Part shown: positions 1,143 to 28,747 of the stretch, piece after piece | How positions within the stretch are numbered: position 1 is the first letter of the stretch | Layout of the letters: every line of letters starts with the position of its first letter | Source of the DNA: a virus | Direction: 5' to 3' (one strand) | IMG/VR virus record: IMGVR_UViG_3300037459_000159 | Span: 1-41,568 of that record | Length of the DNA: 41,568 nt | Position numbers and translations under genes: made by a program | Notes under the pieces: generated by a model | The model's database searches: none | The model's input: only the letters and a program-made list of their open reading frames with translations | What the model was told of the DNA's origin: nothing

Positions 1143-1464
1143 CGTTCACTCCTGTCCTTCTTCGGGTCGTGGCCATGTCGGCGATGAGTAGATCCGCCGC
1201 GTGAATCCTCGCAATGATCTTCCAGTAGGCTTTCTTGCCGCCGTTGCGCTCCTTGTAGGCGATGTCGTCGATGGGGATGAAGGCGTTCACCTCGCCTTTC
1301 GCCCGCGCCTCGATGGTCAACTCCACCTCGGGCTCGATGGAGTGCTCCACGTAGAGCATCCGCCGCAGGTCGGCGAGGATGATCCGTCCGTCCGCTGTTT
1401 GCGAGAAACGATGATACGCGAGCAATAGATCGCGAGGTAGGTCCGGCTTCTTCGGGTCCGTCAC
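1126..1464 (-). CDS. Bbp19-like phage protein
   Basis: A 112-residue protein directly downstream of the portal gene. The segment RFSQTADGRIILADLRR (about residues 19-35) resembles the core of the Bbp19-like family found beside portal genes of BPP-1-type podoviruses, and the second half is charged. The start is GTG at 1464, sharing its first base with the last base of the portal stop, so translation is probably coupled. The function of the family is unknown; its position suggests a role in head assembly. The family assignment is from memory of the motif and is moderate in confidence. Confidence 0.65.
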   Translation of the reverse strand: MTDPKKPDLPRDLLLAYHRFSQTADGRIILADLRRMLYVEHSIEPEVELTIEARAKGEVNAFIPIDDIAYKERNGGKKAYWKIIARIHAADLLIADMATTRRRTGVNDGGNA

Positions 1465-3134
1465 TACGCCGGGACCGCCTGAAGGTTCCGTCCCTCTTGC
1501 ACCGTCTTGTTCACTTCGGCTCCCTGCTGAATCAGATCGGCTCGGCGTTGCTGCTCCAGAAGATCCGCTCTTTCTTCTCGGATCAAGTCCACTTCCTCAT
1601 CGGGGCGCAGAATCTCCGCCGGGACATCGCTCAGGTTGGCGCGAAGAACATTGGCCCTGTCGAAGTCGATGCGGTCGAGCATCGAGGGGTCGCCGGCGGC
1701 TGCAGCCACCGCAATGCTGCGCTCAATGAAGGCGTCGATCACGAGAAGGGATTGCGCCTTCTGCGCCGTAAAGAAGGGCGAAGCGAACTCGATGCTGACC
1801 TCTAGACCGCCAGTGAGTTGCGCCAGGAGATCCAATTCTGGAAGGGCTCCGCGCTTGCGCATCATGGAAATACAGGTCGCCACGATGGGGGCAAGGAACT
1901 CGCGATCCATGATGTCGGCGGGGGCCGACAGCTCTTGGAGCGCCCGAATCTGCCGATCCTGGGTCGCAGTCGCGCTGCGCTCTTGAATCTCTGGGCCTCG
2001 GATCAGCTCCTTGTAGAACGCCTCGTTGATCTGCTTTCGGTCTTCATTCCCGATCTCGTTGGCGACGGCGAAGTCGGTTCCACTCTTCAGGTATTGCGGC
2101 TGGAGTGTGGTGAACGGGCGAACGATGTTGAGGCCGTGGGGTCCGACGTCGAGCTCGATGGCGGTCTCTTCTTCGACCAGGAGCGGCGGGTTGATCTCGC
2201 GTCCTGCCGCGATCAGGACTTGCCGCTTCAGCTCCGAGACGCCTTTCGCATCCAGTCGCGCCACGTTGCCGCGGCCTCGACCCCACTCTTCGCCATCGAC
2301 GACCATCCAGCGGGTGTTGATGAGTTGCCGCTCGTCCATCCCGGACTCTTTGATGAATTCGGGTTCGCCGCTTTCTTCGTTCATCGCGAGCCAGTCAGAG
2401 TTCCAAGCAGCGTCGGAAGCTGGGCGGAGTCCGTGAGGGACTTCGTTCTCGTTCTTGTAGATGAACTGCGTGAACACCGCTTCTTCCATTGGCCGCCCGT
2501 TGTTGAGCGCGGAATCCACGTCGCGGCCAGCGTTGCCCTTGAAGTGGCGGTAAGCCTCGGTCGACGGCATCGTGAATTCACGGGAGATGATCGAGGGGAT
2601 TCCGCCGCGACCCGTGATCCAGTGAACGCGACGGATCGGAACGCTCGTGAAGATGAAGCCGCCGAACGTGTCTCCGTTGCCGTTGCGTTTCGGAGTGTCC
2701 TCCTCGATGGCCATCGTCTGGTTTCCCAGAACAGCAAGATCGAGGATAGACGTCCCTGCCTGGACGTAGAAGTTTGAAGCGTAGAGAGCCGCAGCAACCT
2801 TGCTTGCAACTCTATCCAGAAGGGCCTTGACCTCGATGATGCCGTCGAGAAAAGACGGAGGCATGACCCGGAGCCACTTCGTACCAGCGGGAAGAATCGT
2901 GCCCTTGATGAAGCCGGCGAACGACAACGCGGCCAGCATCATCGTCGTGTCGAAGACGCCCTCGATGCGCGGCCCGCCCTTGGTTCTTATCGTGGAGACA
3001 TCGCCCCGGAACGGCATCCCGAGGTCGCTGATCTCCTGCATGTCATCCTCGAAGTTGACTTTCTTGGATGCCATGTGGCCGAGCCTGGCGATGAGCTCGC
3101 GGGCTCGCTCGTGGATAATGGGCGAGAGGTGCAT
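1464..3134 (-). CDS. Portal (head-tail connector) protein, T7 gp8-like
   Basis: At 556 residues it is close to T7 gp8 (536). Portal-family features are the N-terminal helix with a YLxP-type context missing but FEDDMQEISDLGMPFRGD present, a central alpha-beta wing, and a C-terminal charged helical tail (EEVDLIREERADLLEQQRR, about residues 512-530) seen in podovirus connectors. Twelve copies would form the ring through which DNA enters and leaves the head and on which the tail is built. It lies downstream of TerL and a small beta-rich gene and upstream of scaffold and capsid, the canonical head order. No frame problems are seen. Confidence 0.9.
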   Translation of the reverse strand: MHLSPIIHERARELIARLGHMASKKVNFEDDMQEISDLGMPFRGDVSTIRTKGGPRIEGVFDTTMMLAALSFAGFIKGTILPAGTKWLRVMPPSFLDGIIEVKALLDRVASKVAAALYASNFYVQAGTSILDLAVLGNQTMAIEEDTPKRNGNGDTFGGFIFTSVPIRRVHWITGRGGIPSIISREFTMPSTEAYRHFKGNAGRDVDSALNNGRPMEEAVFTQFIYKNENEVPHGLRPASDAAWNSDWLAMNEESGEPEFIKESGMDERQLINTRWMVVDGEEWGRGRGNVARLDAKGVSELKRQVLIAAGREINPPLLVEEETAIELDVGPHGLNIVRPFTTLQPQYLKSGTDFAVANEIGNEDRKQINEAFYKELIRGPEIQERSATATQDRQIRALQELSAPADIMDREFLAPIVATCISMMRKRGALPELDLLAQLTGGLEVSIEFASPFFTAQKAQSLLVIDAFIERSIAVAAAAGDPSMLDRIDFDRANVLRANLSDVPAEILRPDEEVDLIREERADLLEQQRRADLIQQGAEVNKTVQEGRNLQAVPA

Positions 3135-18444: not shown

Positions 18445-18896
18445 TGGCCGAAGTACCTGTCGATAAAGTTCTCGCCCCCGACATCGGGGTTTGGCGATGC
18501 AAGAAGTGTGGAGATACATCGCCCACCGATGTTCTCGCTCCTCGCTTCGTTCCCGCTGGTGGTGGCCGTGGAATTCACCACGTCTGCCCTGGCACGAGCG
18601 AAGCCCAGGGCTGCGAAATCTTCGTGTCCGGGTTCGAGTTGCTCCATGAGGTGCTCAGGGGGCTTCGTCAACAGGTTGACGTGATTCTGGAGCTGATCCA
18701 TGGAGTTGAAGAAGAATGCCGATCACTGAAAAGCAGCGCAAAGAAAGACTCGCCCGCGCCGGCGGGAGCAGCGAGTCCCCCGCACTCTGCGGAGCCAGCA
18801 AGTGGCAGCAACCCTACGACATCTGGGCGCTCCGAAACCTCGACCTCAAAGTCACCCCGGAGGAAGAAGAAGCGAACCGCAACGCGAAAGCGATAG
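18444..18896 (+). CDS. Zinc-binding protein with tail overlapping the exonuclease gene
   Basis: An ORF of 150 codons from ATG 18444 (TGATG overlap). Residues 1-90 look coding: CKKCGD (about 16-21) and HHVCPGT...GC give a zinc site, then helices. From about 18716 it overlaps the YqaJ gene for 181 bases in another frame, and this tail is low-complexity (SPAPAGAASPP, then SPRRKKKRTATRKR), as expected of overprinting after loss of a stop. The N-terminal part is well supported, the tail doubtful. Confidence 0.6.
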   Translation: MAEVPVDKVLAPDIGVWRCKKCGDTSPTDVLAPRFVPAGGGRGIHHVCPGTSEAQGCEIFVSGFELLHEVLRGLRQQVDVILELIHGVEEECRSLKSSAKKDSPAPAGAASPPHSAEPASGSNPTTSGRSETSTSKSPRRKKKRTATRKR

Positions 18897-19663
18897 GCAA
18901 CTATCAGGAGGACGGCCTTCTAAGCTGGGGCGCTGACGAACTCGGGATTACCATCGTTCGCAACCAGTACGTGATTGGCGCTAACGACGTCATGGCGGCG
19001 CACCTCGACGCCCTGGTCGTCGTGCCCGGTCGCCAGATCATGGACCCGTCACACAAGGCTGTGATGGAGGCGAAGTGCCGAGGGATGCGCGACGATTGGG
19101 GAGCGCCTTACACTGCCGACGTGCCCCAGGACGTGAACTTCCAAGTGCAGCATCAGATGTATTGCAAGGGAGCCGACCTCGCCTACGTGATCGCCCTGCT
19201 CCCGTGTTTCAAGCACATGGAGATGATCCTCTACATCGTTCCCAGGGACGAGGAGCTCATCCAAATGATTTGCGCCGAGTGGGAATGGTTCTGGCCGAAT
19301 CACATCGTAGCGAACGTGCCGCCAGAGTGGGGGCACATGAGCGAGGAGATGCTAGGCCGTGTAAACTTTACGCCCGGCAAGATTATTCCCGTGGCTATCG
19401 ACCTCACCGACAACTGGCTTGATCTTCGCCAGCAACGACTCGACATCTCGAAGGAGGAGAAGAAAGCGAAGCTACACATCGAGACGCTCATCGTCGAGGC
19501 CGATGGCGGCTCCGTCGAGGGCGCAAACTACGAGCTGACCTACACGCCGACGACTCGAAAGAGCCACGGCAAAGACCCCGACAAGTACAAGGACCATTGC
19601 AAGGAATGCGGGCTCGGAGTCCGCGAATCGACTACCCGAACGCTGCGAAAACGAAAGGTGTGA
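18716..19663 (+). CDS. YqaJ-type viral exonuclease
   Basis: A 315-residue PD-(D/E)XK exonuclease of the lambda Exo/YqaJ class, which resects double-stranded ends for strand annealing. The N-terminus (RLARAGGSSESPALCGASKWQQPYDIW) carries the conserved start of the family; nuclease residues are likely Asp in HLDALVV (about 104) and Glu-x-Lys in VMEAKCRG (about 118-125), followed by a Gln-rich helix (VNFQVQHQMYC). The C-terminal third adds helices and a CxxC. It is followed directly by its probable annealing partner. ATG 18716 lies inside the upstream ORF. Confidence 0.88.
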   Translation: MPITEKQRKERLARAGGSSESPALCGASKWQQPYDIWALRNLDLKVTPEEEEANRNAKAIGNYQEDGLLSWGADELGITIVRNQYVIGANDVMAAHLDALVVVPGRQIMDPSHKAVMEAKCRGMRDDWGAPYTADVPQDVNFQVQHQMYCKGADLAYVIALLPCFKHMEMILYIVPRDEELIQMICAEWEWFWPNHIVANVPPEWGHMSEEMLGRVNFTPGKIIPVAIDLTDNWLDLRQQRLDISKEEKKAKLHIETLIVEADGGSVEGANYELTYTPTTRKSHGKDPDKYKDHCKECGLGVRESTTRTLRKRKV

Positions 19664-19665
19664 CC

Positions 19666-20739
19666 GTGAACCAAGAGACCATCACCGAGAGCCAGCTCAT
19701 GGCCCCGGAGACAAGCAAAGCGCCGACTGGCTTTGAAGTCGCGCTCATCGATAGGTGCGTGGTTACGGCGCGAGAGTATCCCCGAGACCTCGAGAAGATC
19801 GTCGCCGACGTCATGCTCTCCGCGACAATGGACATCGACATCGCCGGGGAGTGCTTCTACAGCTTGGAGCGCAAGGGTGCCGATGGAGTGAACGTGATCG
19901 AAGGCCCATCGGTGCGCCTCGCTGAGTTGTTCGTCCAGCAGTGGGGAAACCTCCGCGCCGACACGATCATTGACGACCCAGGACCACGCGACATCTCCGC
20001 TCATTGCGTCGTGTGGGACATGGAGAAGAACACGATGATGAAGGTGACGGCGAAGCGCGGCATCATGGGGAGAAAGGGTCGCTACGGAGACGACATGATC
20101 CGTGTGACGGGGCAGGCTGCGGCGTCGGTCGCGTACCGCAACGCGGTGTGGAAGGTCATCCCGATGGCCTTCGTTCGCAAGGTCATGGGCGCTTGCAAGG
20201 GCAAGATTAGGGGCGACAACGAGGACTCCAAGACGCCAGCGAAAGAGACCATCGCGCAGCGGCGCACCAAGGCCGTGAAGTTCTGGAACTCCCTCGGCAT
20301 CTCCAACAGTCAGATTTTCGCCAAGTTCGGAATCGACAAGCTCTCGAAGCTGACCGGCGACCACCTCGTGAGGCTGGCGGGCGGCTGGAACGCGATCCGC
20401 GAGGGGCAGACCAACCTCGATGGGATCTTCCCCGAGATCCAAGGCGACGACGACCAGGAGCAGGAGAAGGACGACCCGAAGGCGGCTCTGAAAGCGAAGC
20501 AGGATGAGCGTGCGAAACTGCAAAACGTACAAGAAAACTCGCCCCAAGATGACACTCGGGGAAGCGGAAAGGGAGTTACTGAGGGCGGCGACACTGGAGA
20601 TTCAGCGCCTCAAGAGGGAGCTGCGGACGGCGAAGGAGGAGCTGGCGCTTCTCAGGACGACACTTCCCCGCGCAGCCCTGGCGAGGCAGCGGGAGGTTCT
20701 CTACCGCTCGGCGGCGACGGCGACTCCCCGACTAGTTGA
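19666..20739 (+). CDS. Probable single-strand annealing recombinase partner of YqaJ
   Basis: A 357-residue protein immediately after the exonuclease. Residues ~20-190 match a widespread phage family with the pattern CFYSLERKG...IEGPSVRLAELFVQQWGN...DMIRVTGQAAASVAYRNAVWKVIP, often found beside YqaJ-type nucleases and presumed to anneal single strands like RecT/Erf. The annealing role is inferred from context. GTG 19666 is preferred (AAAGG upstream); GTG 19660 is an alternative. The last ~90 residues are low-complexity Gly/Asp/Ser and overlap the next gene by 236 bases. Confidence 0.7.
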   Translation: MNQETITESQLMAPETSKAPTGFEVALIDRCVVTAREYPRDLEKIVADVMLSATMDIDIAGECFYSLERKGADGVNVIEGPSVRLAELFVQQWGNLRADTIIDDPGPRDISAHCVVWDMEKNTMMKVTAKRGIMGRKGRYGDDMIRVTGQAAASVAYRNAVWKVIPMAFVRKVMGACKGKIRGDNEDSKTPAKETIAQRRTKAVKFWNSLGISNSQIFAKFGIDKLSKLTGDHLVRLAGGWNAIREGQTNLDGIFPEIQGDDDQEQEKDDPKAALKAKQDERAKLQNVQENSPQDDTRGSGKGVTEGGDTGDSAPQEGAADGEGGAGASQDDTSPRSPGEAAGGSLPLGGDGDSPTS

Positions 20740-21151: not shown

Positions 21152-21940
21152 ATGGCCAAAGGGATTCCCCCTACCCGGTACTTCATCGCGCCGCGGCGGC
21201 TGTTCAAGTGTGGGCTGTCTGCGCAAGAGATCGCGATAGTCTCCTACCTCTGTAGCTTGGCCGGTCCGGACGAGGTTGCTTGGCCTTCCGTCAGGGCGAT
21301 CACGGAATCGACTAAGGTGAGCAGGGCTCAGGTGTTCCGTGTCCTGAAGGCTCTCTGCAACGCGGGGATCCTTGCGAGCGAGAGCGGGGGCGAGAAACAC
21401 AGAAGCAACCGCTACACGGTCAACTGGGAGGCAATAGGGGGGCCAAACGGTCTCACAGAGAGACTAGGGGTCTCACCAGGAGACGGGGAGGGTCTCGTAG
21501 AGAGACGGGGAGGGTCTCCTGGTGAGACCCCTATTGATCCATTATTGACTGATCCATCATCTACCACAACCCCCCTACCCCCCAAGGGGGCACGGTTCGA
21601 TTTCGAATCAGTTCGTCAGGAATGGAACGCGCGGGCGAAAAAGTGGGGGCTCAAGACGCTGGAGAAGGCGAGAGTCCCTAAGAGCAGAGCACAGAAGAAG
21701 CGAGAGACGGCCTGGCTTGCCCTGTGCCGCGATTGGGAGTCTCCAGCTAAGGTCTGGGTAGTCATGGACCGAGAGTTGCCTCTGCGGAAGCCCTGGGCCG
21801 TTGAGCAGCGTTTCCCATCATTCGACCAGATGTGCCAGGCGTCGACGTTCCAGAAGCTCTCGGAGGGGTTCTACCAGGGCGAGGGAGCCAGGAAGAGGGA
21901 CGAGGAGCGGAGGGAGGCGGACAGTGGCTGGCAACAGTGA
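21152..21940 (+). CDS. Helix-turn-helix replication initiator, lambda O-like layout
   Basis: A 262-residue protein with GGAGG before ATG 21152. Residues ~10-95 form a winged-helix HTH (LSAQEIAIVSYLCSL, EVAWPSVRAITESTKVSRAQVFRVLKAL, GILASESGGEKHRSNRYTVNW), the fold seen in phage replication initiators such as lambda O. A Gly/Ser/Pro linker (100-145) is encoded by four iterons, and a C-terminal helical domain (150-262) would contact host helicase or loader. Position beside recombination genes and the iteron array in its own gene support an initiator role. No helicase or primase is encoded here, so host ones must be used. Confidence 0.75.
   Translation: MAKGIPPTRYFIAPRRLFKCGLSAQEIAIVSYLCSLAGPDEVAWPSVRAITESTKVSRAQVFRVLKALCNAGILASESGGEKHRSNRYTVNWEAIGGPNGLTERLGVSPGDGEGLVERRGGSPGETPIDPLLTDPSSTTTPLPPKGARFDFESVRQEWNARAKKWGLKTLEKARVPKSRAQKKRETAWLALCRDWESPAKVWVVMDRELPLRKPWAVEQRFPSFDQMCQASTFQKLSEGFYQGEGARKRDEERREADSGWQQ
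21449..21528 (+). repeat. Four dyad iterons: candidate replication origin
   Basis: Four copies of GGTCTC-N5-GAGAC start at 21449, 21469, 21491 and 21513, that is at 20, 22 and 22 bp intervals, two helical turns. Each iteron is itself an inverted repeat (GTCTC/GAGAC). Copies 2 and 4 also form a perfect 20-bp inverted repeat (21465-21484 with 21514-21533), and a 15-bp word GACGGGGAGGGTCTC is repeated at 21482 and 21504. The array lies in the linker of the initiator gene, as lambda ori does in gene O. Confidence 0.8.
21531..21567 (+). other. A+T-rich stretch next to iterons (candidate unwinding element)
   Basis: Directly after the iterons the sequence becomes A+T-rich for this genome (CTATTGATCCATTATTGACT...) and carries the word TGATCCAT twice (21535-21542 and 21550-21557). 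This is where lambda-type origins open. It is suggestive only. Confidence 0.55.
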
Positions 21941-24553: not shown

Positions 24554-24916
24554 CTACTGCGCCTTGATTCCCCATTGTTTGACACGAGCATCGTACTTGG
24601 CCTGGTGGCGGTGGTCGAACTCCGCGTCGGTCTCGCCCTCGGCGTAGCGTTGACGCGAATGCACTGTGCGTTTCACACAGAGAGAGTCTTCCCAGACCGC
24701 AATTTCTTCTGACATTTCAATCTCGTTTTCTAGAAGCATTCGCAGCTCGTTCACGTCATGAGCCGTGGAGCTGAACGAGCTGACTGTGATGAAGGCAATT
24801 ACCAACGACGCACAGACGAACATAGTGAACAGGGCGATGGTTCTGGAGTGGTCCTTGACAGGCTTCTCTATAGCACCAAAGACAATACCGTTATTTCGGG
24901 AATTCGGGGATGTCAA
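24554..24916 (-). CDS. Single-TM protein, lysis candidate
   Basis: A 120-residue protein starting at TTG 24916 (GGGAG six bases upstream), overlapping the previous gene by 26 bases in another frame. Residues ~26-48 (TIALFTMFVCASLVIAFITVSSF in part) form one membrane helix with a short basic N-terminus inside; the rest is charged and would be periplasmic, including helix VNELRMLLENEIEMSEE. As last gene of the late block next to another TM protein, it could be a spanin or holin-type protein. No lipobox and no enzyme motif. Confidence 0.6.
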   Translation of the reverse strand: MTSPNSRNNGIVFGAIEKPVKDHSRTIALFTMFVCASLVIAFITVSSFSSTAHDVNELRMLLENEIEMSEEIAVWEDSLCVKRTVHSRQRYAEGETDAEFDHRHQAKYDARVKQWGIKAQ

Positions 24917-25151
24917 GGTTCGCTCCCGGGTTCTTATCCTTGAGCCTCTGGATCCACTGCAACATGTCAGCTCTGGAGATCCTACCCTTGATGACCTGCT
25001 CGATCCTAATTAAAGAATCGTCAATGTTCGAAAGATGCGACTCGATTGAGGTTATGTAAGCCCCACCCCCGAACGCCCCGCATATGCAGAGCACCACAAG
25101 CCCAAGCTGGATCGGTGTCGCCCGACTGATGGCGCCCGTGCCTTGTGTCAT
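24891..25151 (-). CDS. Single-TM protein, lysis candidate
   Basis: An 86-residue protein with GGGAGG before ATG 25151. One Gly/Cys-rich membrane helix (about residues 14-33, LGLVVLCICGAFGGGAY) is followed by an amphipathic coiled coil (SHLSNIDDSLIRIEQVI) and a short polar tail. Layout fits an inner-membrane spanin or small holin. It lies directly after the gp16-like gene, where T7 has its tail fibre then holin. Assignment is by context only. Confidence 0.6.
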   Translation of the reverse strand: MTQGTGAISRATPIQLGLVVLCICGAFGGGAYITSIESHLSNIDDSLIRIEQVIKGRISRADMLQWIQRLKDKNPGANLDIPEFPK

Positions 25152-25162
25152 GTCCGACCTCC

Positions 25163-28100
25163 CTATTCCTGTAGCCCGAGAGCCTCTGCGGTCGCATCCT
25201 CGACCTCGTCGAACAGCGCCCGAAAATAGAAAAGATTCTGGAACGGCATCAATCTTCTGAGTGTGTGCAAGTCACCAGCCGATGGGCCGTCGGCCTTGAA
25301 CGGCGCACCAATGACGCGAGCGATGTCCGTCGTCGCTCCGACCGCTGGACCAAACGCCGCGTCGATGATGTTACGAGCGCGGAAACGACTTGTGACCTCG
25401 CCGCCGAGGAGGGCCGAGGCGCCGAGGCGACCACTCGTCGCTTTTTCAACCAGCGCGTTGTAGTCGGAGTAGAGCCCCAGGATGCCCGATCGGTCTACGG
25501 CATTTTGCGCAATCACGAGCGGGTTGTCGCTGATCTTTCGACCGGCGAGCGTCTCCTTGACCAAGTAGATCATCGCGCCCATGCCGACCATGGCCATCAT
25601 GCCCTGGAACACCTGGGCATCTCTCCGCTGCATCCCCGAGAGCGTTGTGCGTTGCACCGCTGCGAACTGGAACGAACGAAACTGGCCCATGAGAGAGAGG
25701 ATCGGATCCGCCATGAATCGCGGAGCCTCTCCGACGCCAGGGAGGAGAACGCTTTTCTCTACGTCGGTAACGACGACGGCCCCGAAGTCCCGAGCAAGCG
25801 CCCTGTTATCAGGACCCCAATCCTCGACGCGAGCGAGGAGCAACCTTCCGCCGACACCCTCCTCAATGTCTCCCCCACGGTGGACCTCCCCGAACTCGTC
25901 CATCATCTTCGCGAATCGGATTGCCATCGTTCGGTTGACGCCGGCCAGGGCGAGCTGTACTTGCCGAGCCTGGGAGAGCTTCCCGGCCCGCCATGCCATC
26001 GAGTCTCGCATGATTCGATCCGCGACCATGAGCGAGCTTCCTGACGACAGGTAGGCGTTGTGATGATCGAGCCCTATGGCCTTGGAGAAGACGTTTTGAA
26101 TCGCCGCTAGGCCACGACCGAAGGCTGTCGTCGGGTCTTGTGCGAACAGGTCTCCCTTCCGCATCGAGCGCCTGGCGTTCCCGACGAGATTGTAGGCCAG
26201 GAACATGCGTTGCATGTCCGCGCCCTTGACCTTGGACAACAGCGCAGGGTCGGCGACGATGGCCTTGAAGGTCCGCATGAACGACGAGCTGCCGTTCGTG
26301 AAAATGATCTGCCCGAGGTCGGCCCATGACGAGATCCAGAAGCCCCCACCCTTCACGACGAAGTTGAGCCCCTTGATTGCCGAGGCTGCGCGATAGAAGA
26401 AGTTTCGAGGGTCCTCGGTCATCCCTGTGATGTTGAGGAGCTTCTTCCGGACATGCTCGATGTCGGTGAGGGTGTTGACGAGCTGGCGTTCTATCCGCGC
26501 TCTCTTCTTGACAGGGGCCGCGTCGATAAGAGCCGCGAACTCCCGACGGATGATCTTCTTCACTGTGACGAGCTGGACACCGTCGAACGCCTCGGCCTTG
26601 CGGAGCGAAACGGCCTGGTTCGCCAGGCCCAGGGTCGCGTTGGCGATGTCGGTCTTGTCTTCGATCTCCAGTACGGTCCCGTCCTTGCGTGTCACTCCGT
26701 CCTGCGAGAGCTGCACTCTGATTTCGCCCTCTAGCTCCGCCCTCAGATCCTTGTTCTTGAGCATCGCCGGCTGCAATTCTTTGTGGGCGATGGTGCGGAA
26801 CTCCTCCAGTTGATTCAGGACCCTAAGCAAGTCGTCCTCACCCTCCTTCAGTGCTCTCCCGATCCCCTGCACGAAGACCTCGTCACCATCGAACAATTGC
26901 TGAGACAGCAGCTCATTGTTTCTATGGAGGCTTTCCTGTTTCTTGATGAGGGCCTCTATCTTAGCCGCCGTCTTCCACCTCGAGCTGTGCGAGTACGCTC
27001 GCATCGTCTTGAGGTTCTCGATGCGATGCTGCACTAGCATCAACTCCAGGACGTCGCCCTTCTTGGCGTGGTCCCTTGCCGCGAGTACGTGCTCCCTCAA
27101 ACCGCCGATCATCGGGGTGTCGGTCGGAGCCATCCGGGCGAGCTCGATCTTCCCGGGCATGGTTTCCGAGAGACGTTCGAGGATGATGTCCATGTCGGAG
27201 ACGAGGAACTCCTCGATGTCAACGTCCTTCACCGTGAACGAGCGAGTCTGCAACGGGTCAGGGTTGAGGCCCCAGTCCCACTGCTTCACGTTGGCGATGA
27301 TGTCCTCGGCGATCTCCCGAGCCCCTTCGTCGGTGGTTGCCCTCCCGGTCTCTTTCGCCCATCGCATTGCCTGGTCCCCGAAGCCGGTCCCGTCCTCGCG
27401 CCAAGTGCCCTCGAGCACGGCATCCTGATCGTAGACCCTGGTAAGCCACGAGATGGCAGTGTCGGCGACCTCTCCGGGCTCGATGAGCCCGACCGCGACA
27501 AGCTGTTCGTTCATCTCGTTGAAGCGTTTCCGGACCTTGTTTGCCGACGCCTTCACCGCGATAGCGAGTAGCTCATCTTCGAGGAAGTCGGCCTCGTCTC
27601 CGCGCCTCATGGCCATCGCAACGCCCTTGGAAAACTCGGGGTACTTGGTCGTCCCCCCTTCCTTCCAATAGCGGGCGTGCTCGACGCGCATGTCGAGCCG
27701 CTCAAGCGTCACGTTGTAGCGCCAGAGGTCCGTGTAGGCTTCCACCGACGGCCCCATGGTCTCGCCGTCGCGAGTCGCCAAGCGAACGATCGGGGTAGAC
27801 ATGAGGCGAGCCGCGAGGTTCTGGACCTTGGGGATTCCGCTGAGATACATCCGCATCAATGGGGTTCGGATCAGGGCACCCAGCGCCTTGACGGCACGGC
27901 CCGAAGGAGCCTCTGCGCCGCTGGCCTTCTGCAACTGGGTCACTGCGTTTGCTGCGAACTCGTCCATCGAGATTTGCTCGCCGGCCATCATGGTGATCGT
28001 CGGGAAGTTGTGCTCCCCGGTCTCGTCGATGGACTTTCTCGCGACCGCCTCTTCGGCCTCGATCTTCTTTGCGAGGTCGGTCAGCTCCAGAGGCGAGAGC

Positions 28101-28747
28101 CACTTCGCCGAAGCGCCGCCCAGGACCCCCGAGATGATCGTCGCACCCGAGACGTTGAGGATCGACTCTCCGATGCCCCGAGTCTCCTGAAGCTCCTGAA
28201 GGCCAACCTCCGCAGCGAGCGAAGATACAAACCCCGCTGGAGCAGCTAGTTTAGCCCCTTTCATGAACGATGCGCCGACCTTTGCTGCCCTGGCCGGTCC
28301 AGCTATAAACCCGAAAGGGACCAGGTTCTCGGGAGAGATCAGCCCCGCGCCCATCATGGCGATGAAGCCAGCCCATCCGGAGTCGGCCAACACCTCACGC
28401 GCCGCGAGCTCCGAGTCGACCTTGCTCCGTAGTCGTATCGTTTCCGCTGGGGACCTGGAGCTCGTGAACGTATCAGCGAACTCGATTTTGTAGAAGTCAG
28501 GGAGCGTGTCGTCCTTGAAGGAGTTGTAGCCGGCGACGGGAGGGTCGTCCCCAGAGAACTCGGTAGCGTGTGCAAACGCCCCGAGAAGATTCTCTTGCTG
28601 GATCGCCGCGCCCCACACCCGTTCGGAGAACAGAGACTCGAAGAACCCCGGAGCCTTCGGCGTGGGCGTGGAGGTCCCGACGTCTCGACTGATCTTCGCG
28701 TCGATGCTCAGGTCGTCGAGGACTTCGGATGGTTCTACGGCTGGCAC
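25163..28747 (-). CDS. Large internal virion (ejection) protein, T7 gp16-like
   Basis: 1194 residues, close to T7 gp16 (1318), and last of the gp13-16 series. In T7 such proteins leave the head and form a channel across the envelope for DNA entry. Ala/Gly-rich hydrophobic stretches near residues 125-215 (AGFIAMMGAGLISPENLVPF) and near 1075-1100 (MMAMVGMGAMIYLV) could enter membranes; the middle (450-780) is long helical and charged. I see no lysozyme or transglycosylase motif, so the muralytic part of T7 gp16 seems absent or unrecognisable. GTG 28747 start, overlapping the previous gene by 13 bases. Confidence 0.75.
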   Translation of the reverse strand: MPAVEPSEVLDDLSIDAKISRDVGTSTPTPKAPGFFESLFSERVWGAAIQQENLLGAFAHATEFSGDDPPVAGYNSFKDDTLPDFYKIEFADTFTSSRSPAETIRLRSKVDSELAAREVLADSGWAGFIAMMGAGLISPENLVPFGFIAGPARAAKVGASFMKGAKLAAPAGFVSSLAAEVGLQELQETRGIGESILNVSGATIISGVLGGASAKWLSPLELTDLAKKIEAEEAVARKSIDETGEHNFPTITMMAGEQISMDEFAANAVTQLQKASGAEAPSGRAVKALGALIRTPLMRMYLSGIPKVQNLAARLMSTPIVRLATRDGETMGPSVEAYTDLWRYNVTLERLDMRVEHARYWKEGGTTKYPEFSKGVAMAMRRGDEADFLEDELLAIAVKASANKVRKRFNEMNEQLVAVGLIEPGEVADTAISWLTRVYDQDAVLEGTWREDGTGFGDQAMRWAKETGRATTDEGAREIAEDIIANVKQWDWGLNPDPLQTRSFTVKDVDIEEFLVSDMDIILERLSETMPGKIELARMAPTDTPMIGGLREHVLAARDHAKKGDVLELMLVQHRIENLKTMRAYSHSSRWKTAAKIEALIKKQESLHRNNELLSQQLFDGDEVFVQGIGRALKEGEDDLLRVLNQLEEFRTIAHKELQPAMLKNKDLRAELEGEIRVQLSQDGVTRKDGTVLEIEDKTDIANATLGLANQAVSLRKAEAFDGVQLVTVKKIIRREFAALIDAAPVKKRARIERQLVNTLTDIEHVRKKLLNITGMTEDPRNFFYRAASAIKGLNFVVKGGGFWISSWADLGQIIFTNGSSSFMRTFKAIVADPALLSKVKGADMQRMFLAYNLVGNARRSMRKGDLFAQDPTTAFGRGLAAIQNVFSKAIGLDHHNAYLSSGSSLMVADRIMRDSMAWRAGKLSQARQVQLALAGVNRTMAIRFAKMMDEFGEVHRGGDIEEGVGGRLLLARVEDWGPDNRALARDFGAVVVTDVEKSVLLPGVGEAPRFMADPILSLMGQFRSFQFAAVQRTTLSGMQRRDAQVFQGMMAMVGMGAMIYLVKETLAGRKISDNPLVIAQNAVDRSGILGLYSDYNALVEKATSGRLGASALLGGEVTSRFRARNIIDAAFGPAVGATTDIARVIGAPFKADGPSAGDLHTLRRLMPFQNLFYFRALFDEVEDATAEALGLQE

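Follow-up and report, generated by a model that had tools for sequence, protein, structure and literature searches.

Positions 21152–21940 of a 41,568-base virus record (IMGVR_UViG_3300037459_000159, positions 1 to 41,568; this whole stretch is referred to as the window) very probably (probability about 0.88) represent a self-contained, lambda-type replication origin of a tailed phage, in which iterated dyads are predicted to be bound by the product of the gene that contains them, with O-some-like opening and helicase recruitment. What we infer from the sequence is that the protein binds as dimers, that the DNA melts, that a helicase is recruited and that the locus acts as an origin. Comparison with other viruses further makes it likely that a simple code governs how phage initiators of the HTH_36 class recognize their own intragenic origin, with initiator and origin changing together in one gene and forming many mutually incompatible replicons whose origins would be readable from sequence alone. 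The principle of an intragenic origin is already known (lambda O; pSK41 and pPR9 Rep).

Iteron array, initiator protein and A+T-rich tract

Exact matches to GTCTC-N5-GAGAC were found only four times in the whole 41.6-kb record (starts 21450, 21470, 21492 and 21514). Each is preceded by a G (starts including this base: 21449, 21469, 21491 and 21513; spacings of 20, 22 and 22 bp), and all four lie within 80 bp (21449–21528) of a single gene, ORF 21152–21940(+). The features of the locus are as follows:

21152..21940, + strand: initiator gene encoding an O-like replication initiation protein of 262 aa (HTH_36 and PHROG matches)
21182..21436, + strand: winged helix-turn-helix (wHTH) DNA-binding domain, residues ~11–95 (AlphaFold2 pLDDT block means of 82–98 for residues 11–90)
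21320..21340, + strand: start of the recognition helix, S57-R58-A59-Q60-V61-F62-R63 (helix 58–70 in the model; A59 is helix position 3)
21446..21592, + strand: codons of the low-confidence linker, residues 99–147, holding the iterons and the A+T-rich tract (pLDDT mostly 50–63)
21449..21464, no strand: iteron 1, GGTCTC-ACAGA-GAGAC, exact dyad
21469..21484, no strand: iteron 2, GGTCTC-ACCAG-GAGAC, exact dyad; arm of a perfect 20-nt inverted repeat formed with iteron 4
21491..21506, no strand: iteron 3, GGTCTC-GTAGA-GAGAC, exact dyad
21513..21528, no strand: iteron 4, GGTCTC-CTGGT-GAGAC, exact dyad
21530..21569, no strand: A+T-rich tract, candidate DNA-unwinding element (37.5% G+C; holds TGATCCAT twice)
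21602..21931, + strand: helical C-terminal domain, residues ~151–260 (helices in the model, pLDDT mostly 50–80; covered by the phrog_345 match)

When the initiator gene was shuffled among synonymous codons (n = 20,000; same protein and same codon usage), four copies of the dyad arose in none of the shuffles and three copies in one, while 87% contained no copy. The reading-frame phases of the four dyads are 1, 0, 1 and 2, and the encoded peptides are LTER, VSPGD, LVER and SPGET. Because the dyads occupy all three frames and specify differing peptides, the repeat is conserved at the level of DNA and not of the peptide.

The N-terminus of the protein matched HTH_36 (PF13730) with 34.4 bits, against a Pfam curated cut-off of 25. 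PHROG matches were obtained to phrog_270 (replication initiation, 6.5e-11), phrog_391 (O-like, 5.5e-8) and, over nearly the full length (residues 29–242), phrog_345 (O-like, 1.6e-5). Pfam scans up to E 1 returned neither a Phage_rep_O match nor a RepA_N domain; a weak similarity to PF03428 (RepC) was seen at E 0.0056. In the AlphaFold2 model, the iterons encode residues ~99–126, just past the winged helix (pLDDT mostly >90) and inside the low-confidence linker; the C-terminal domain presumably recruits replication proteins. S57 and R63 are (nearly) invariant in the homologue alignment. Fold searches with the winged helix returned generic winged helices and singled out no one family.

The 40-mer at 21530–21569 has a G+C content of 37.5%, compared with 61% for the genome, and ranks in the lowest 0.11% of the window's 40-mers; TGATCCAT occurs in it at 21535–21542 and 21550–21557. 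Within 18–25 kb, the A+T content of the tract is exceeded only at a gene boundary near 24.7–25.0 kb. This stretch (24700–25030) is the most A+T-rich of the record, with 40-mers down to 30% G+C, and marks a convergent boundary of early and late genes. Among 57 non-redundant relatives (GTCTC and GTGTC classes, see below), G+C was lower by 0.113 (s.e. 0.016) in the 30 bp past the array and was back up by about 100 bp. An earlier note on this DNA had described four dyads at intervals of 20–22 bp that encode the linker of a protein with an HTH N-terminus and are followed by an A+T-rich tract with a repeat. These points were borne out by the exact pattern match over the record, by the HTH_36 match together with the modelled order of winged helix and linker, and by the composition and repeat of the tract.

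Comparison with known systems

In the lambda record, four annotated iterons (CCCTC-AAAAC-GAGGG and variants) lie inside gene O at spacings of 20, 24 and 23 bp. The window shares with lambda ori the four dyads with 5-bp arms and N5 (spacing 20–24 bp in lambda), their location inside the initiator gene and the A+T-rich tract that follows, but has GTCTC in place of CCCTC arms. Experiments on lambda and Stx phages have established that O dimerizes, binds the iterons and forms the O-some, and that the A+T tract is required (PMC7466680). The window protein differs from lambda O in matching HTH_36 and not Phage_rep_O; in addition, the IstB/DnaC and DnaB_C models detected no protein of their types in the record, which may be incomplete. 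Given the missing Phage_rep_O match, the protein would work like lambda O but belong to the HTH_36 class of initiators. In gene family, copy number and spacing, in its N5 dyads and in its A+T tract the locus matches lambda ori, and the comparison thus supports the lambda-type origin that the earlier note had proposed.

The winged helix gave a fold match (Z 9.2, rmsd 6.7, 96 aligned) to 4pql, which we take to be the N-terminal domain of a RepA_N initiator, tied with many generic winged helices. In pSK41 Rep, an N-terminal winged helix binds four boxes within its own gene, and the ori-encoded linker is dispensable as protein (PMC5703833). Both proteins thus combine a wHTH N-terminus with four sites inside their own gene, binding being known for pSK41 and predicted for the window; RepA_N/pSK41 differs in belonging to a plasmid, not a phage, and in the Pfam domain that the window protein did not match. 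The Rep protein of plasmid pPR9 has an HTH_36 (pfam13730) N-terminus of phage type and its mini-replicon works, and in chimeric Rep proteins of the pPR9/pUSA03 type the N-terminus, together with the neighbouring ori DNA, supports replication and alters compatibility (PMC5703833). The HTH_36 N-terminus is common to this type of Rep and the window protein, pPR9 being a staphylococcal plasmid.

Initiators of the phi11 type are homologous to the window protein over residues 8–90 and likewise have a wHTH domain with repeats in the codons that follow; they differ in their helix and repeats (TCGAC/TTGAAATTCAATCGG-like), and a DnaC-like loader gene follows in phi11. The origin of repABC replicons lies within the RepC coding sequence and comprises an A+T-rich region, with no iterons found in repC (PMC3155836). 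The window resembles it in the predicted intragenic origin, the A+T-rich region and the weak PF03428 similarity, but contains iterons.

Genome neighbourhood

The initiator gene is surrounded by a phage recombination/replication module (RecE-like exonuclease, RecT-like protein, HNH nuclease and RusA). Genes for a RecE-like exonuclease and then a RecT-like protein (phrog_3657) lie just upstream, at 18716–20739; the best relative of the latter is from Microcystis phage Mae-JY30 (36% identity), and its use as an anchor for finding relatives gave no match among viral contigs. A head-tail adaptor (phrog_332) and an internal virion protein (phrog_342) are encoded at 1464–3134 and 25163–28747 (-), on the strand opposite to the early genes. 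The cumulative GC skew of the record showed no clear turn at 21.5 kb, a point against an origin there. No relatives of the window at the DNA level were found in the annotated phage collection. The closest match by protein among viral contigs (L001) was rejected as not a true counterpart; it is without such iterons.

Conservation of the array in other viruses

A total of 2.9 million viral contigs were scanned for two GTCTC-N5-GAGAC dyads 3–18 bp apart, with the arms read backwards as a control. The pattern was present in 81 contigs, the reversed control in 5. Counting the window, 60 of 82 sets (59 of them from the scan) had a gene with a related winged helix that the array overlapped or that lay just upstream of it. 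The array mostly fell in the linker after the winged-helix domain, with a typical start 27 residues past the domain core. Clustering of the wHTH-bearing sets at 60% identity gave 29–33 gene clusters with a median pairwise identity of 34% (N-terminal part), and phrog_270 was matched by 26 of 29 relatives and O-like phrog_391 by 24 of 29. Dyads were spaced by 20–25 bp in two thirds of cases, three or more copies were seen in many clusters, and dyads stood in more than one frame in 15–16 of about 30 clusters. The remaining 22 sets had no wHTH gene by model, at least five of them carrying a diverged one (helices PRASFYR, ARATYFR and SRANYFK).

The earlier note had named a lack of iteron conservation in homologues as refuting its proposal. 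The comparison did not refute it: initiators with the same helix keep the iterons at a median identity of ~34%, and those with other recognition helices mostly carry other repeats at the same place. PotUPM1 (SERAVQG) and phi11 (GKQRYQR) lack these dyads altogether, yet have repeats there. Among named isolates fetched by tblastn, GTCTC arrays were mostly absent: in Labrenzia phage V1 (helix SRATLNR) two sites with one mismatch each lie 83 bp apart, and no GTCTC sites were found in Vibrio phages with SRATVAK, in which helix residue 7 is not R, or in Salmonella SI8 (SRSTVKS). The divergence of alignments A2 and A3 was too high for a pattern search.

Several arrays departed from the common layout. 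In two large phages (L018:9597–9773 and L060:8161 onward), GTCTC arrays are located at or just past the 3' end of the wHTH gene, not in the linker, and two initiator genes (L028:2378–2560 and L136:4794–4988) contain nine-copy arrays, double the usual number. Open frames also contain three matches to the reversed control (L088, L089 and L090; CTCTG-N5-CAGAG arrays); two of these frames, those of L088 and L090, carry a different possible DNA-binding domain upstream, possibly reflecting another iteron class.

Correspondence between recognition helix and iteron arm

To relate helix and arm, 80 loci were collected by protein only, without regard to iterons. In this set, SRA, SRC and SRP helices occurred with GTCTC and helices of the type SRS-T/S-V/I-I/L-R with GTGTC (at some loci in just one exact copy), with no crossover; other helices had neither arm, save for single near-matches. 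Two or more N5 dyads with identical arms were present in 12 of 36 non-redundant genes, compared with 0.25 expected from synonymous shuffles, and N5 was the best spacer in these 36 genes. In the reverse direction, arrays of GTGTC, GTGAC and GTCGC were searched by DNA and the helices then read at the array loci. A winged helix was found at 67/80 (GTGTC), 51/80 (GTGAC) and 53/68 (GTCGC) of the loci examined.

Among non-redundant members, helix position 3 was A in 25 of 29 of the GTCTC class, S in 22 of 34 (plus R in 8) of the GTGTC class, R in 23 of 25 of the GTGAC class and A in 14 of 20 (plus S in 5) of the GTCGC class. At position 1, 17 of the 20 GTCGC members had H, N or D, as opposed to 28 of the 29 GTCTC members with S. 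The prior expectation of A at position 3 for GTCGC, based on one example (HRATIIR), held in most members but not all. On a fixed dyad (5-bp arm, N5, 5-bp arm), the code would probably read as follows: A at residue 3 pairs with GTCTC, S with GTGTC and R with GTGAC, and H or N at residue 1 along with A at residue 3 pairs with GTCGC. By its helix, the window protein is of the GTCTC type.

A tree on 42 non-helix columns contained 14 changes of iteron class, with little support, and only two independent pairs that were supported, each of which co-varied in most pairings. A column-by-column information test, in which the tree was not modelled, was used in its place. The domain columns most informative on iteron class were helix positions 3, 6 and 1 (excess of 0.81, 0.43 and 0.41 bits); the next column reached 0.26 bits and most were under 0.1. 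The tree does not prove phylogenetic independence of the link between helix and arm, and on these data shared ancestry is not fully excluded. In the non-subscription literature searched, we found neither a helix-iteron code for phage initiators nor a relevant paper joining GTCTC, GAGAC, iteron and phage.

Dyad pairs in bacteria and alternative functions

In bacterial genomes the GTCTC dyad pair was rarer (73 stretches in 84,980 genomes). A sizeable share of the pairs adjoin genes for AcoR-like or other activators, named by eye, whose Fis-type C-terminal helix reads SRAT-x-YRK. Such pairs lie at or near the start, or in some cases the end, of the activator gene on the bacterial chromosome (L104, L110, L112, L117, L119, L127, L128, L131 and L133; likewise L145, L147, L153, L155, L159, L160, L162 and L164). 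The hosts are mainly Nocardioides and Kribbella, and many of the genes are AcoR-like by eye, with the helix SRAT-x-YR(K/R). These pairs are probably operators, and the same helix letters in a different HTH family support a direct reading of GTCTC by SRA[TS]. Since the dyad pair beside bacterial regulator genes is more likely an operator there, the dyad alone is no proof of an origin.

By analogy, the dyads of the window could be operators through which the encoded protein controls transcription of its own operon, with the origin located elsewhere. The winged-helix fold, which the fold search showed to be common to MarR-, Fur- and Crp-type regulators, would suit this role, as would the dyad pairs at or upstream of the AcoR-like genes of Nocardioides, Kribbella and others. 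We consider it improbable: the array begins ~300 bp into the gene and not at its promoter, and it keeps roughly this position across some 30 diverged clusters, many of which have three or more copies at 20–25 bp; an A+T tract adjoins it, and the protein matches initiator families, not regulators. Still smaller is the chance that the dyads form a site for partition (centromere-like) or packaging, recognized by the initiator or another phage protein: repeated dyads occur in partition sites as well, but here the arm sequence varies with the recognition helix of the very protein whose gene holds the array, and no parA/parB-type neighbour was noted among the nearby ORFs scanned. The dyads might finally reflect a protein-level repeat of a low-complexity linker and not a DNA site, as their location in a low-confidence, probably disordered linker could suggest; the chance of this is negligible, the frame analysis having refuted it (different peptides in three frames, a pattern recurring in about half of the clusters), and synonymous shuffles do not yield the array.

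Proposed mechanism and implications

As a lambda-type origin, the locus would operate through its N-terminal winged helix, which is predicted to bind, as dimers, the four 15-bp dyads in the codons of its own flexible linker; the correspondence between helix and arm points to such binding indirectly. Among known systems, lambda O and the Rep proteins of pSK41 and pPR9 are the strongest precedents. With half-sites 10 bp apart and dyad centres about two turns apart (20–22 bp), the four dimers would be placed on nearly the same face of the DNA. The resulting O-some-like complex could then open the A+T tract at 21530–21569, after which the C-terminal domain may bring in the replicative helicase or its loader, via a phage protein or the host loader.

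The origin of the window is in itself one more lambda-type origin, in a phage without a close relative in the annotated phage collection. The new part is the correspondence between helix and arm over four iteron classes, in initiators of a class that is very common among phages. If the code holds at the bench, the sequences of many uncultured phages could serve to find their origins and to sort these into compatibility groups. Two long-standing questions, how the specificities of initiator and origin change together and why origins sit inside initiator genes, would then also be directly testable, for which a small set of natural domains would suffice.
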